Origin: an uncultured Myxococcales bacterium
GTDB taxonomy: Bacteria; Myxococcota_A; Polyangia; Polyangiales; Polyangiaceae
Direction of reading: 5' to 3'
DNA: 64,000 nt
Assembly: GCA_937872925.1 (NCBI GenBank)
Contig: CALMUT010000066.1
Span: 1 to 64,000 of the forward strand
A model generated the notes under the pieces. It worked only from the letters and a program-made list of their open reading frames with translations. It did not search any database and was not told the DNA's origin. Below are positions 40,398-44,815 of the stretch, piece after piece (the first letter of the stretch is position 1; each line of letters begins with the position of its first letter). Position numbers and translations under genes: made by a program.

Positions 40398-40802
40398 TCA
40401 GTCACTGCCGACAAGCGCATCTGACGTCGCGTCGCCGCCGTCAGGATCGCCGGCCTCGGTGTCCGCGTCGCCGGCCTCGGTGTCCGCGTCGCCGGCCTCG
40501 GTGTCCGCGTCGCCGGCCTCGGTGTCCGCGTCGCTGTTGACCTCGCCGTCCCCTGCGTCGGGGCTGGGCGGAGTACCGCCCGCACCGCCGGCCCCACTTG
40601 CACCACCCGTGCTGCCGCCGGAACCGGCATAGCCCGAATCCAGGGCTAGATTACCGCCGCTGCCGCCCGTCCCTGCGCTAGCGCCCACGCCACCGCCACC
40701 CTTGTCGTCCGCGGGGACCTCGGGCTGCGGGTTGAGCACGCAGGAGCCCAGCGAAAGCGCGAACGCAAACGCCATGGTCCAAGCCCGCCTGCGCCCACTC
40801 AT
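40398..40802 (-). CDS. LNPQPEVP-type lipoprotein with DADTEAG repeats
   Basis: 134 residues from ATG 40802. Lipobox LGSC (Cys21) is directly followed by VLNPQPEVP, the same motif as in the neighbouring gene at 41280. A Gly/Ser/Ala-rich stretch is followed by four 7-residue DADTEAG units. The mature protein is almost wholly low-complexity, so it is probably a short surface-anchored linker-like lipoprotein. No known domain. Same strand as the second lipoprotein 109 bp upstream. Confidence 0.75.
   Translation of the reverse strand: MSGRRRAWTMAFAFALSLGSCVLNPQPEVPADDKGGGGVGASAGTGGSGGNLALDSGYAGSGGSTGGASGAGGAGGTPPSPDAGDGEVNSDADTEAGDADTEAGDADTEAGDADTEAGDPDGGDATSDALVGSD
40448..40531 (-). repeat. 21-bp tandem repeat encoding DADTEAG
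   Basis: Four identical 21-bp units, written on the plus strand as CGCCGGCCTCGGTGTCCGCG plus T, occupy 40448-40531 in frame with the lipoprotein gene. Identity between the copies suggests recent slippage or expansion. Confidence 0.9.
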
Positions 40803-40911: not shown

Positions 40912-41280
40912 TCAATCCGTGCTCGCTTCCAGGATCCCGCCGTCGGCCGCGCCGTCTTCACCGGCGTCGTCGCCCGCCTCGGTGCTGCCGTCACCCGCCT
41001 CCGTACTGCCGTCAGCAGGCCCAGCGTCGCCGCCATCATCGCCAGCACCCCCGTCTAAGAAAGACCCGCCGAAGCCGGCACTGCCCGCGGAACCCGCAGA
41101 TCCACCGCTGGAAACCGCCCCTCCGCCGCCACCGCCGTCCAAGCCGGTCCCGAAACCCCCACTGCCGCCGACGCCGGAATCCGCACCCTGCAAGCTCGGC
41201 ACTTCAGGTTGTGGATTGAGATCGCACGCCCCAACGGCAATGCCCAATCCGAGAAACAGCCACGATAGTCGTCGAAGCAC
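40912..41280 (-). CDS. Second LNPQPEVP-type lipoprotein
   Basis: 122 residues from GTG 41280. Lipobox VGAC (Cys19) is followed directly by DLNPQPEVP, as in the gene at 40802. The rest is Gly/Ser-rich with acidic DGSTEAGD-like repeats (GSTEAGDGSTEAGDDAGEDG). It is a paralog of the neighbour by its N-terminal motif and its architecture, not by its tail. Function unknown. Confidence 0.72.
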   Translation of the reverse strand: MLRRLSWLFLGLGIAVGACDLNPQPEVPSLQGADSGVGGSGGFGTGLDGGGGGGAVSSGGSAGSAGSAGFGGSFLDGGAGDDGGDAGPADGSTEAGDGSTEAGDDAGEDGAADGGILEASTD

Positions 41281-41353: not shown

Positions 41354-42181
41354 CTAGCTGGACGCATCTTTGGCGCGGCGTGCGGCCTCCAGCAATGCGT
41401 GAATGACGTCCATATCCGGCGGGTCGGCCCGCAGCGCCCGGGCCAGCCGCGCTAGCTCCGCACTGAGCGCTTCCGCCTGCTCTGCGACCAGGTCGGCGTT
41501 GGTTAGAAACACGTCGGACCACATGCTGCGCGCGCCACCGGCCCCGCGCGTCATGCGTTCGAAAGCGGGTCCGGCTGCTGCAGCGTCATCACCTGGCTGG
41601 GCGGCGACTCGCAGCGCGCTGGCCAGCAATTGCGGCAGGTGGCTGGTCAGCGCCACGGCCCGGTCGTGTGCTGCGGCGCTCATCTCGTGCACGGCACCGC
41701 CCAGCCCCGCGATCAGCGTCCGCACCCGCATGAGCGCACCCGGCTCCACCTGTTCAGGGCAGAGCAGCCAGGACGCATTCGCAAAGAGATCTGCGCGCGC
41801 GTGCACAAACCCGTTGCGGGGGGCGCCGGTCATCGGGTGCCCGGGAACGAAACGACCGGCCCGCCCGTGGCCCCTCGCCGCCGCCGCCACCTGGCGTTTC
41901 GTAGACGCGACGTCGGTCACGACGCTGCCGGTGTCGAGAGCCGGCCCCAGCAACGCAAGCACTGAAACAACGGGCACCGCGAGCACGATCAGATCGCACT
42001 CGGGCATGCGCGAGAGATCGGACTCGCTGCCGATGCTCACGAAGTCATCAAGCAGATCATCGGGCCAGTCCCCTTTGCGGAGATCCGCACCGATCACTTC
42101 ACAGCCGACAAAGAATTTCCGCACGCCGAGCGCAATCGAACCGCCGATCAGGCCGAGGCCGACCACGCCGACACGCTTCAT
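41354..42181 (-). CDS. tyrA: Prephenate dehydrogenase (TyrA)
   Basis: 275 residues from ATG 42181, overlapping the preceding stop as ATGA. It is an NAD(P)-dependent enzyme converting prephenate to 4-hydroxyphenylpyruvate, or arogenate to tyrosine. The Rossmann GLGLIGGS is at residues 8-15, followed by the TyrA catalytic-type motif RFVPGHPMTGAP, VVTDVASTKR, and AHDRAVALTSHLPQLLASAL with the conserved His. Length is typical of monofunctional enzymes with no ACT domain at the C-terminus. It is coupled with the DAHP-synthase-like gene, suggesting a regulatory link in aromatic amino acid synthesis. Confidence 0.93.
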   Translation of the reverse strand: MKRVGVVGLGLIGGSIALGVRKFFVGCEVIGADLRKGDWPDDLLDDFVSIGSESDLSRMPECDLIVLAVPVVSVLALLGPALDTGSVVTDVASTKRQVAAAARGHGRAGRFVPGHPMTGAPRNGFVHARADLFANASWLLCPEQVEPGALMRVRTLIAGLGGAVHEMSAAAHDRAVALTSHLPQLLASALRVAAQPGDDAAAAGPAFERMTRGAGGARSMWSDVFLTNADLVAEQAEALSAELARLARALRADPPDMDVIHALLEAARRAKDASS

Positions 42182-43050
42182 TGCCGAACGGCAGCCCCGA
42201 TGGCGCGAACACGCTCAGCGACGCTGACCGCGTCCAGCCAACTGAGCGTCGCAGGCACACGAGGCGTCGCACCTTCGCGGCCGACCCATGCGCGCAAGAT
42301 CACGCCGTCGGCCCCGGCGCCAATCGCCGCGCAGGCGACGGCGGCGCAGTAGCGCGCGCGCTGCGCGATAGTCGGAACATCGACCACGATGGGCAAATGG
42401 GTGCGGATCTTGGCCCGCGCAATCGCGGCGACTTCCAGGGTTCGCGCGCCGTTCGGGTACTCGCCACCCGCCTCCAACAGCACCACGGAGCGTTCCCGCC
42501 GTGACAGTTCGCGCTCCGCTGCGCCAATCCACGAGTTGGCTCCCCAGCTGGGCGCGCGTTCCACGAAGGCAATCGGCTTCTCGCGTTCCCGCGCGTTGGG
42601 GTGGAGCTGAAGGCAGGTCAGCGCGCCGACGCTCTCGGGCGCATTGCGGCTGCGCGACACCGCGGCATCGAAGGGCCGACCGGCTGCCACTTCGTAGGGG
42701 AGCTCCGTGCTGGGCGGTCCGTCGTCGGAGCTGACGGACAGACCAATCAATTCGACGGCGACCCAAGGACGCTCGCCACCAATGCTGCCCCAGGAACCCT
42801 CGACGACCGTGGAGGCCTGGCGGAAGCGGCGAGAAGCCAGCTTGTATGGCTCGCTCACCCGGACAACCTCCGCCACAAACATCAGCTCCCGCACCACGGC
42901 AACGTCGTCCGGCGTGACATCTCCCACCACGCCCAGCAGCGTCCGCGTCTGCCCGCTGGAGCGGTGCACGTCGAAGCCGGATTCGACCAAATGCGCAATG
43001 ACCGCCTCGACCGCGGAGTCCGGGGCTTCGGTTTCCATTACTACAACCAT
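42178..43050 (-). CDS. DAHP-synthase-like protein with decayed active site
   Basis: 290 residues from ATG 43050; the start MVVVMETEAP matches the ferredoxin-like regulatory domain of type Ib DAHP synthases (MVVVMK..., RTLLGVVGD, VVRVSEPYKLASRRF), residues 1-75. The barrel is shortened and divergent: the AGPCSVE, KPRTSPYSF and DPSHxxG motifs that supply the catalytic residues and metal ligands read VAVELIGLSVS, nothing recognisable, and VDVPTIAQR. The match resumes weakly at RSVVLLEAGGEYPNGARTLE and KIRTHLPIVVD. It is therefore unlikely to catalyse the DAHP reaction. The N-terminal domain, which in the active enzymes senses tyrosine or phenylalanine, is intact. Its 4-base overlap with tyrA suggests a regulatory partner role. 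Confidence 0.82.
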   Translation of the reverse strand: MVVVMETEAPDSAVEAVIAHLVESGFDVHRSSGQTRTLLGVVGDVTPDDVAVVRELMFVAEVVRVSEPYKLASRRFRQASTVVEGSWGSIGGERPWVAVELIGLSVSSDDGPPSTELPYEVAAGRPFDAAVSRSRNAPESVGALTCLQLHPNAREREKPIAFVERAPSWGANSWIGAAERELSRRERSVVLLEAGGEYPNGARTLEVAAIARAKIRTHLPIVVDVPTIAQRARYCAAVACAAIGAGADGVILRAWVGREGATPRVPATLSWLDAVSVAERVRAIGAAVRQ

Positions 43051-43138: not shown

Positions 43139-44815
43139 ATGCTGAGCCAACCCGACGATTTGATCGGAACACTTGTTGCGGAACGTTACCGAGTCCAAGA
43201 GCGACTGGGGCGGGGAGGCATGGGAACCGTGTACCTGGCCGAACACGAGGCGATCCACAAGAAGGTCGCGCTCAAGGTCTTGCACCCAGAATACTCCGCC
43301 AAACCCGACCTCGTAGAGCGCTTCCAACGGGAGGCCATCAGCGCGTCGCGGGTCAAACACACGAACGTCCTGGAGGTCTTCGACTTCGGCTCCTTGCCGA
43401 ACGGTTGTTTCTACCTCGCCATGGAGTTCCTCGATGGTCGCGACCTCGCGGATGAGCTCGAGGACAAAAAAGCCTTGCCAGCGGAGCGTGCCCTGCAGCT
43501 CGCGAAGCAGATCTGTCGCGCGCTTTCGGCAGCGCACTCTCGCGGCGTGGTGCATCGGGATCTGAAACCCGAGAACGTCTTTCTCTCCCGCACGAGCGAC
43601 GGCGACGAAATCGTGAAGATCGTCGACTTCGGCATTGCCCAGTTACGCTCTGCAGACGATGCAGCCAAGTCCGAGCCAACGCGCCGCAGATTGACTCGTA
43701 CGGGCATGATCTTCGGGACTCCCGAATACATGTCCCCGGAGCAGGCTCAAGGCGCGCGCTCGGATCATCGGGTCGATGTCTACGCCACGGGCGTGATCTT
43801 GTTCGAGATGCTCACCGGCGCAGTGCCTTTCACCGGCGAGACGTTTCTGGGCGTATTGCAGGCTCACTTGACCCAGCCCCTGCGACCCATGCGGGATTTC
43901 TATGCCGACGTCGTAGTATCGCCGGAGCTTGAGGCCGTTGTGGCGCGCGCCCTTGAAAAAGACGTCGAGGCACGTTTCAGCAGCATGAACGAGCTGAGCG
44001 CAGCGCTGCTTGCCACCCCCGAAGGGGTCAATCTCCGCGCGTCCATCCTGCCCCCCGCCGGGCCTGCCCTCGACCGCGTCTCAAGCGTGCCCACCGCTTC
44101 GAGCCCGGGCCAGCCAACCAGCGTTCAGTTCGATGACACGTCTCCAGAAGGACAAGGGAAGAGCGCGAACAAGGCGACTGCGGACACCGTGCTCGAACAG
44201 CCGGTGCCGCTCACTACCGCAAAGTCCCGAGAAGCGGCCGCCGTCACGGCGCTCGGTGAAACCACACCCAGCCCGGGCGTCGCGGAGCCAGCGCGCCGCT
44301 CAACGGCGATCTGGATCGCATTGGGTGGTTTCGCGCTGGTCGGCCTCGTCGCAGGGGGCCTCTACATCCGCAACACCTCCGTGCCCACGCCGGCAACCGG
44401 ATCGGCGCCAGAGCCGAACTCGCCAACGCAAGTCGCGCCACCACAAGCGCCCACGGACGTGCCTACTGAAGCGCCGTCGGTCACGCCGGCACCTTCCGCC
44501 GCGCCGGATCCCGCGGCGGGCAAGATCCGCTTGCAAGTCGAAAGCAAGCCCACCGGGGCCGTGGTCTTCATGGATGGCGCACAAGTCTGCGACACCGCGC
44601 CCTGCGAGGTCTTGGTCGAGGCGGACCAGGTCGTGGAACTTCGTGCGGAACTCAACGGGCAAAAGGCGGAGCGCAAGGTGCTCGCCCAGCGAGACCAGGC
44701 CGTGAGCCTGGAGCTGAAGAAGAAGGCGGTCGGCACCGCGCCAAAGAAGATGTGTACCGCCGAGGTGATGCGCGACGGAATCAAGGTCTTCATCGACGTG
44801 CCCTGCCAGCGCTGA
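43139..44815 (+). CDS. Ser/Thr protein kinase with PEGA domain
   Basis: 558 residues from ATG 43139. An N-terminal Hanks-type kinase (about residues 17-280) has the glycine loop GRGGMGTVY, VALKVL lysine, HRDLKPEN catalytic loop, DFG and GTPEYMSPEQ activation segment, so it appears active. A Pro/Ser/Thr-rich cytoplasmic linker is followed by one membrane helix (AIWIALGGFALVGLVAGGLY), a Pro/Thr linker and a C-terminal PEGA domain (RLQVESKPTGAVVFMDGAQV) expected outside the cytoplasm. It likely phosphorylates FHA-type or other partners. It is divergent from the DAHP-synthase-like gene. Confidence 0.93.
   Translation: MLSQPDDLIGTLVAERYRVQERLGRGGMGTVYLAEHEAIHKKVALKVLHPEYSAKPDLVERFQREAISASRVKHTNVLEVFDFGSLPNGCFYLAMEFLDGRDLADELEDKKALPAERALQLAKQICRALSAAHSRGVVHRDLKPENVFLSRTSDGDEIVKIVDFGIAQLRSADDAAKSEPTRRRLTRTGMIFGTPEYMSPEQAQGARSDHRVDVYATGVILFEMLTGAVPFTGETFLGVLQAHLTQPLRPMRDFYADVVVSPELEAVVARALEKDVEARFSSMNELSAALLATPEGVNLRASILPPAGPALDRVSSVPTASSPGQPTSVQFDDTSPEGQGKSANKATADTVLEQPVPLTTAKSREAAAVTALGETTPSPGVAEPARRSTAIWIALGGFALVGLVAGGLYIRNTSVPTPATGSAPEPNSPTQVAPPQAPTDVPTEAPSVTPAPSAAPDPAAGKIRLQVESKPTGAVVFMDGAQVCDTAPCEVLVEADQVVELRAELNGQKAERKVLAQRDQAVSLELKKKAVGTAPKKMCTAEVMRDGIKVFIDVPCQR

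Follow-up and report, generated by a model that had tools for sequence, protein, structure and literature searches.

The window, a stretch of 64,000 nucleotides from an uncultured Myxococcales bacterium, carries on its minus strand two overlapping genes, an inactive homologue of DAHP synthase (42178..43050, minus strand; 290 aa plus stop, open frame from ATG to TGA) and tyrA, which encodes a prephenate/arogenate dehydrogenase (41354..42181, minus strand; 275 aa, ATG start). The DAHP synthase homologue begins with a ferredoxin-like effector domain (residues 1-67; 42850..43050, minus strand) that exceeds the cut-off of PF18152 and covers the entire profile (E = 2.7e-15, positions 1-67 of 67). 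Its first 86 residues align without gaps to residues 1-86 of Thermotoga maritima DAHP synthase, and in this alignment the putative tyrosine contacts (H29-R30-S31 codons at 42958..42966, minus strand) occupy the same positions as H29 and S31 of the Thermotoga enzyme. The remainder is a degenerate, shortened barrel (residues 93-290; 42181..42774, minus strand), which matches PF00793 only partially and below the cut-off (16.3 against 25.5 bits); the match to TIGR01361 is likewise below its cut-off (45.4 against 267.75 bits). The stop codon TGA of the first gene and the ATG of tyrA share the tetranucleotide ATGA at 42178..42181 (minus strand). Both the retention of a type Ib DAHP synthase effector domain and the four-base overlap with tyrA had been proposed in the original prediction, which was made from the letters alone, and both are borne out. 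TyrA itself has PDH_N and PDH_C domains above their cut-offs (PF02153, E = 7.2e-23; PF20463, E = 5.5e-12) and the motifs GxGxxGGS, GHPM and SHLPQ, and the profile search reported no ACT domain, so that the enzyme appears to have no regulatory domain. Neither Rfam matches nor sigma-70-like promoter sites were found near the operon. A divergently oriented gene for a Ser/Thr protein kinase (43139-44815, plus strand) adjoins the DAHP synthase homologue and is retained in many relatives. On the other side lie two tandem small lipoprotein-like genes (40398-40802 and 40912-41280, both minus strand), in whose products the signal sequence is succeeded by a shared C-x-LNPQPEVP and then by low-complexity stretches, with 21-bp repeats in the 40398-40802 gene; of 23 related loci, 11 have a C-x-LNPQPE-type motif near the operon.

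The catalytic residues were traced in an alignment with 14 DAHP synthases from other phyla and the three intact ones that this genome encodes. The motifs AGPCSVE, KPRTSPYDF and SDG have been replaced, and so have Lys in LKRG, Arg in CERG, His in DPSH and both Glu and His in E-V-H: AGPCS in strand 1 reads VELIG, LKRG reads VERA, CERG reads LEAG, DPSH reads DVPT and E-V-H reads R-A-W. Arg in LKRG, Glu and Gly in CERG and Asp in DPSH have survived. The loss of metal-ligand and phosphate-contact motifs noted in the original prediction is confirmed. The catalytic motifs are missing from all 23 aligned members of the group. Of the metal ligands, the Cys of AGPCS is replaced by a hydrophobic residue, the His of DPSH mostly by Thr or Ser, and the Asp of SDG by varied residues, while the site of the strand-8 glutamate is occupied by R253, invariant in the 23 members. 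Other invariant polar residues of the barrel are E100, D128, R133, R165, E193, R203 and D224. The barrel is also shortened, as had been predicted: the intact copies in this genome have 331-374 residues and the protein only 290, with about 50 residues missing from the first half of the barrel.

AlphaFold2 models computed with and without distant DAHP synthases (pLDDT 88 and 85, respectively) agree with each other and display a normal effector domain followed by seven barrel-like strands instead of the eight of a complete barrel; they lack one strand and, in the first half, most helices. Among solved structures, T. maritima DAHP synthase comes closest (1vr6_C, Z = 24.1, rmsd 4.1, 280 residues aligned). 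With this type Ib enzyme (TM0343; PDB 1rzm, 1vr6, 3pg9 and the chimera 4grs) the protein shares the two-domain architecture, the fold and the positions of H29 and S31, but it differs in having no metal ligands, in the loss of key phosphate ligands, in a barrel shorter by about 50 residues and in its coupling to tyrA. The overall fold match could be taken to mean that the protein is still active as a DAHP synthase, its catalytic residues having shifted position, yet in no member do the metal set (Cys, His, Glu, Asp), KPRTS or the Lys and Arg of LKRG/CERG appear at equivalent or neighbouring alignment positions, and with a strand and most first-half helices missing from the models we consider this reading close to untenable. 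We conclude that the protein is almost certainly not a DAHP synthase, and refer to it below as the pseudoenzyme.

Pseudoenzyme orthologues are present in 27 of 318 genomes of the class, exclusively within the GTDB family of the window. A scan of about 85,000 species genomes with two peptide patterns, which may miss divergent members, yielded 23 named loci whose record titles refer to Polyangiaceae, Sorangium or other Myxococcota. All complete members among the 318 genomes are free of internal stops. Close pairs have dN of 0-0.22 and dS of 0.5-1.8, giving dN/dS of about 0-0.24 in both domains; both are under purifying selection. In the 18 genomes in which the two genes were compared, the pseudoenzyme is better conserved than TyrA in all 153 pairs (mean identity 64% vs 46%), the C-terminal half of the barrel being its most conserved part. 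The description of the protein as decayed is therefore misleading, since the gene is intact and conserved. The loss of catalytic motifs might also be expected of a decaying pseudogene held in place by synteny, but the full-length frames without stops, the low dN/dS, the conservation exceeding that of TyrA and the retention of the pair where flanking genes differ leave this explanation next to no probability. That the pseudoenzyme is a functional protein is, in our judgement, virtually certain.

The association with tyrA is tight. Counting the window, 18 of 19 paired loci show an ATGA or GTGA overlap, also where the flanking genes differ; relatives thus keep the pair with its four-base overlap and, among complete members, without the frameshift traces that would have pointed to a simple pseudogene. 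Related TyrA proteins occur without the pseudoenzyme in G003, G022, G279 and G303, and no remnants of the pseudoenzyme were found upstream of tyrA in these four genomes. Intact DAHP synthases are encoded near tyrA in G004, G009, G015 and G023. Because such proximity is recurrent, the location of the pseudoenzyme may be inherited, and the pair may descend from an ordinary operon of DAHP synthase and tyrA. In one relative (G012, L035 7974-8831, minus strand) another shortened FXD-DAHP synthase of 285 aa lacks both AGPCSVE and KPRTS and reads DPSE in place of DPSH; its gene opens a trpE-trpG-trpDCF-trpBA operon extending down to 1225 and overlaps trpE by ATGA. The effector domain of this protein has L29 and L31, differing from the tyrosine-type site, and it is possibly a tryptophan-branch counterpart of the pseudoenzyme. 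An inactive-looking DAHP synthase heading a trp operon suggests that the conversion occurred more than once. In G057 (L036 7928-9982, minus strand), a 684-aa open frame includes 333 residues that match DAHP synthase; what lies outside the match may be a fusion or the result of an over-long start.

An enzyme homologue that has lost catalysis and remains under purifying selection, genetically coupled (18 of 19 overlaps) to a catalytic partner with no ACT domain in the window, corresponds to what is expected of a regulatory pseudoenzyme acting in trans. The signal it would sense is suggested by the effector domain. In T. maritima DAHP synthase, H29 and S31 reportedly contact the tyrosine hydroxyl, according to work of Cross and colleagues from 2011 and 2013, and we take the positions of H29 and S31 in the pseudoenzyme to be equivalent to these contacts. 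Of 290 positions, just four (H29, S31, V42 and A278) are identical in all 21 paired members yet missing from four members that have no adjacent tyrA; in these, residues 29-33 read QRLSG (L155, G251), QCMTG (L160, G246), QRLTG (L161, G023) and QQIDG (L162, G017). With the exception of G028, every member with HRSSG at these positions has tyrA directly downstream. Effector-domain identity is 67% among paired members and 47% between paired and unpaired ones. The barrel tree divides the members lacking tyrA into two or more groups, a clade of L160-L162 (support 100/99) and L150 (G028); L155 joins the former with weak support, and the data are compatible with its grouping with L156 or apart from it (p-AU 0.44). 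There are thus two independent contrasts for the absence of tyrA, in one of which the sensor residues are lost whereas in the other (G028) they are kept, so that the association between H29 and tyrA cannot reach significance. The association goes back to one or two evolutionary events and has one exception; its strength lies in the presence of both presumed tyrosine contacts among the few discriminating positions. H29 and S31 are also found together in intact enzymes of other phyla (L165, L171 and L177) and in T. maritima, which suggests, on an unrooted tree, that they were lost in the unpaired clade. Structural work on the T. maritima enzyme provides a precedent for the proposed signal: binding of tyrosine or phenylalanine to the ferredoxin-like domain restricts access to the active site (PMC5526877), and the effector domain reorients by about 110 degrees (PMC4822156). 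In our estimate the pseudoenzyme probably binds tyrosine.

The target of such a sensor could be TyrA or a DAHP synthase encoded elsewhere, as the original prediction had put forward. Separate intact enzymes, also anticipated there, do exist: the window genome encodes three type I DAHP synthases outside the window (L001, 345 aa; L002, 331 aa; L003, 374 aa). L003 (1414-2538, minus strand) is an intact-looking variant in which AGLCAVDN replaces AGPCSVE in a 374-aa frame. If the pseudoenzyme were a regulatory subunit of one of these enzymes, it would form mixed tetramers and confer tyrosine sensitivity in trans. Besides the three intact enzymes themselves, such a role would be consistent with the residues at positions 29 and 31 of the FXD-bearing L001 and four listed relatives, which are N/I or H/M and never the H29/S31 pair; in this genome the tyrosine-type site is therefore carried by the pseudoenzyme and not by that intact enzyme. 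Type II DAHP synthase, moreover, is present in one of 12 family genomes with the pseudoenzyme and in 14 of 25 without it (37 in total; Fisher p = 0.011, uncorrected for relatedness). Against this, the gene is linked to tyrA rather than to a DAHP synthase, a member with the barrel persists in G251 where type I DAHP synthase was not detected, G028 has a type II enzyme, and G017 and G023 have lost the sensor residues but still possess DAHP synthases. We therefore regard a subunit of an intact DAHP synthase as improbable.

TyrA is the better supported target. One observation in its favour comes from G018 (L034 3-1034, minus strand), where a 344-aa open frame joins the effector domain directly to TyrA with no barrel between them (PF18152, E = 3.3e-17; PF02153, E = 7e-22) and retains HRSSG. 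This fusion, unique among the 318 genomes and located on a single 3.3-kb contig of one MAG, together with H29 and S31 supports the proposal of a tyrosine-sensing pseudoenzyme, in which tyrosine binding itself is an inference. An action of the pseudoenzyme on TyrA has somewhat better than even odds in our estimate.

Conservation of the barrel, which neither of the two targets explains where adjacent TyrA is absent, has to be considered separately. Its highly conserved core (residues 160-257; 42280..42573, minus strand), with the pattern ER.PSWGAN.WI..AE ... EAGGEYPNGARTLE ... RTHLPIVVD ... GADGVILR.W, has a mean pairwise identity of 74% among paired members and 75% between paired and unpaired ones. 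Since the barrel is conserved without TyrA, TyrA cannot be its sole purpose. Conversely, in L157 and L164 the barrel has drifted while HRSSG and tyrA are kept, and in G018 it is absent. Effector domain and barrel thus appear to answer to different constraints. In G251 (MAG KLAP139, 90% complete; L155) the barrel is retained, although searches found no dehydrogenase above the cut-off, no type I DAHP synthase (E 1e-20; the search covered type I only) and no chorismate synthase. This MAG may represent an aromatic auxotroph among myxobacteria. In G028, chorismate synthase and a type II DAHP synthase are present but TyrA was not detected. The genomes without tyrA share no constant second neighbour that could serve as a clue to the role of the barrel. 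From the pattern of conservation we consider a separate role of the barrel rather likely.

One could go further and propose that the pseudoenzyme is a new enzyme or ligand-binding protein, with a remodelled active site in the barrel under feedback control by the effector domain and with tyrA as a merely co-expressed neighbour. The many invariant polar residues of the barrel, the equal conservation of its core away from tyrA and its persistence in G251, where TyrA, type I DAHP synthase and chorismate synthase went undetected, are in line with such a protein. The drifting barrels next to an unchanged HRSSG and tyrA in L157 and L164, the barrel-free fusion in G018, the modelled count of seven strands rather than eight and the lack of any constant neighbour pointing to a product or pathway are not, and we see this as an unlikely but not negligible alternative.

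The explanation we prefer, to which we give about an even chance, is that a type Ib DAHP synthase gave rise to a regulatory pseudoenzyme that senses tyrosine and acts on TyrA, with a second role for its barrel. Tyrosine would bind the ferredoxin-like domain at H29 and S31, probably between two such domains, and the effector domain would then signal to TyrA, a dimer translated together with the pseudoenzyme and lacking a regulatory domain; in this way the tyrosine branch would come under feedback control in trans. Unable to make DAHP, the barrel would serve as a folded scaffold whose pocket or surface, remodelled and conserved, accommodates a second partner or ligand independent of TyrA. The contact with TyrA, the sign of the effect and the second partner all belong to this proposed model. 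In a more specific and tentative form, which we hold to be possible but on balance unlikely, the protein would be a two-headed regulator, combining a tyrosine sensor that acts on TyrA with a remodelled barrel in which an invariant arginine stands where a metal ligand used to be. This barrel would have its own ligand or partner, important enough for it to be kept in a lineage that has apparently lost aromatic amino-acid synthesis.

Partial counterparts exist among known systems. HisZ, an inactive paralogue of histidyl-tRNA synthetase, regulates the short form of HisG, with both the complex and the allostery proven (PMC10795190). The pseudoenzyme would similarly be a catalytically dead enzyme relative that binds an end product and regulates a biosynthetic enzyme lacking a regulatory domain; fold and pathway are unrelated, however, and complex and allostery would here be predicted ones. 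In Mycobacterium tuberculosis, DAHP synthase and chorismate mutase form a complex (PMC5526877), which likewise unites a DAHP synthase with another enzyme of the aromatic pathway and provides mutual allostery in trans, but that DAHP synthase is active and of type II, and the partner is chorismate mutase. The fusion in G018 appears to be the same kind of solution as the TyrA-ACT and TyrA-REG fusions (PMC1173090), in which TyrA is joined to a regulatory domain; it differs in that the domain is the ferredoxin-like domain of DAHP synthase, placed N-terminally, unlike the fusions named there (ACT, REG, AroF, AroQ and HisHb). Among the papers searched, none names an inactive DAHP synthase of this kind.

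If the preferred explanation is correct, the pair would be a naturally occurring example in which a pathway's entry enzyme has been emptied of catalysis and retained as a sensor for an enzyme of a downstream branch. With the gene pair, the domain fusion and the linked loss of sensor residues all present in living relatives, the path from enzyme to regulatory subunit would be directly testable in this family.
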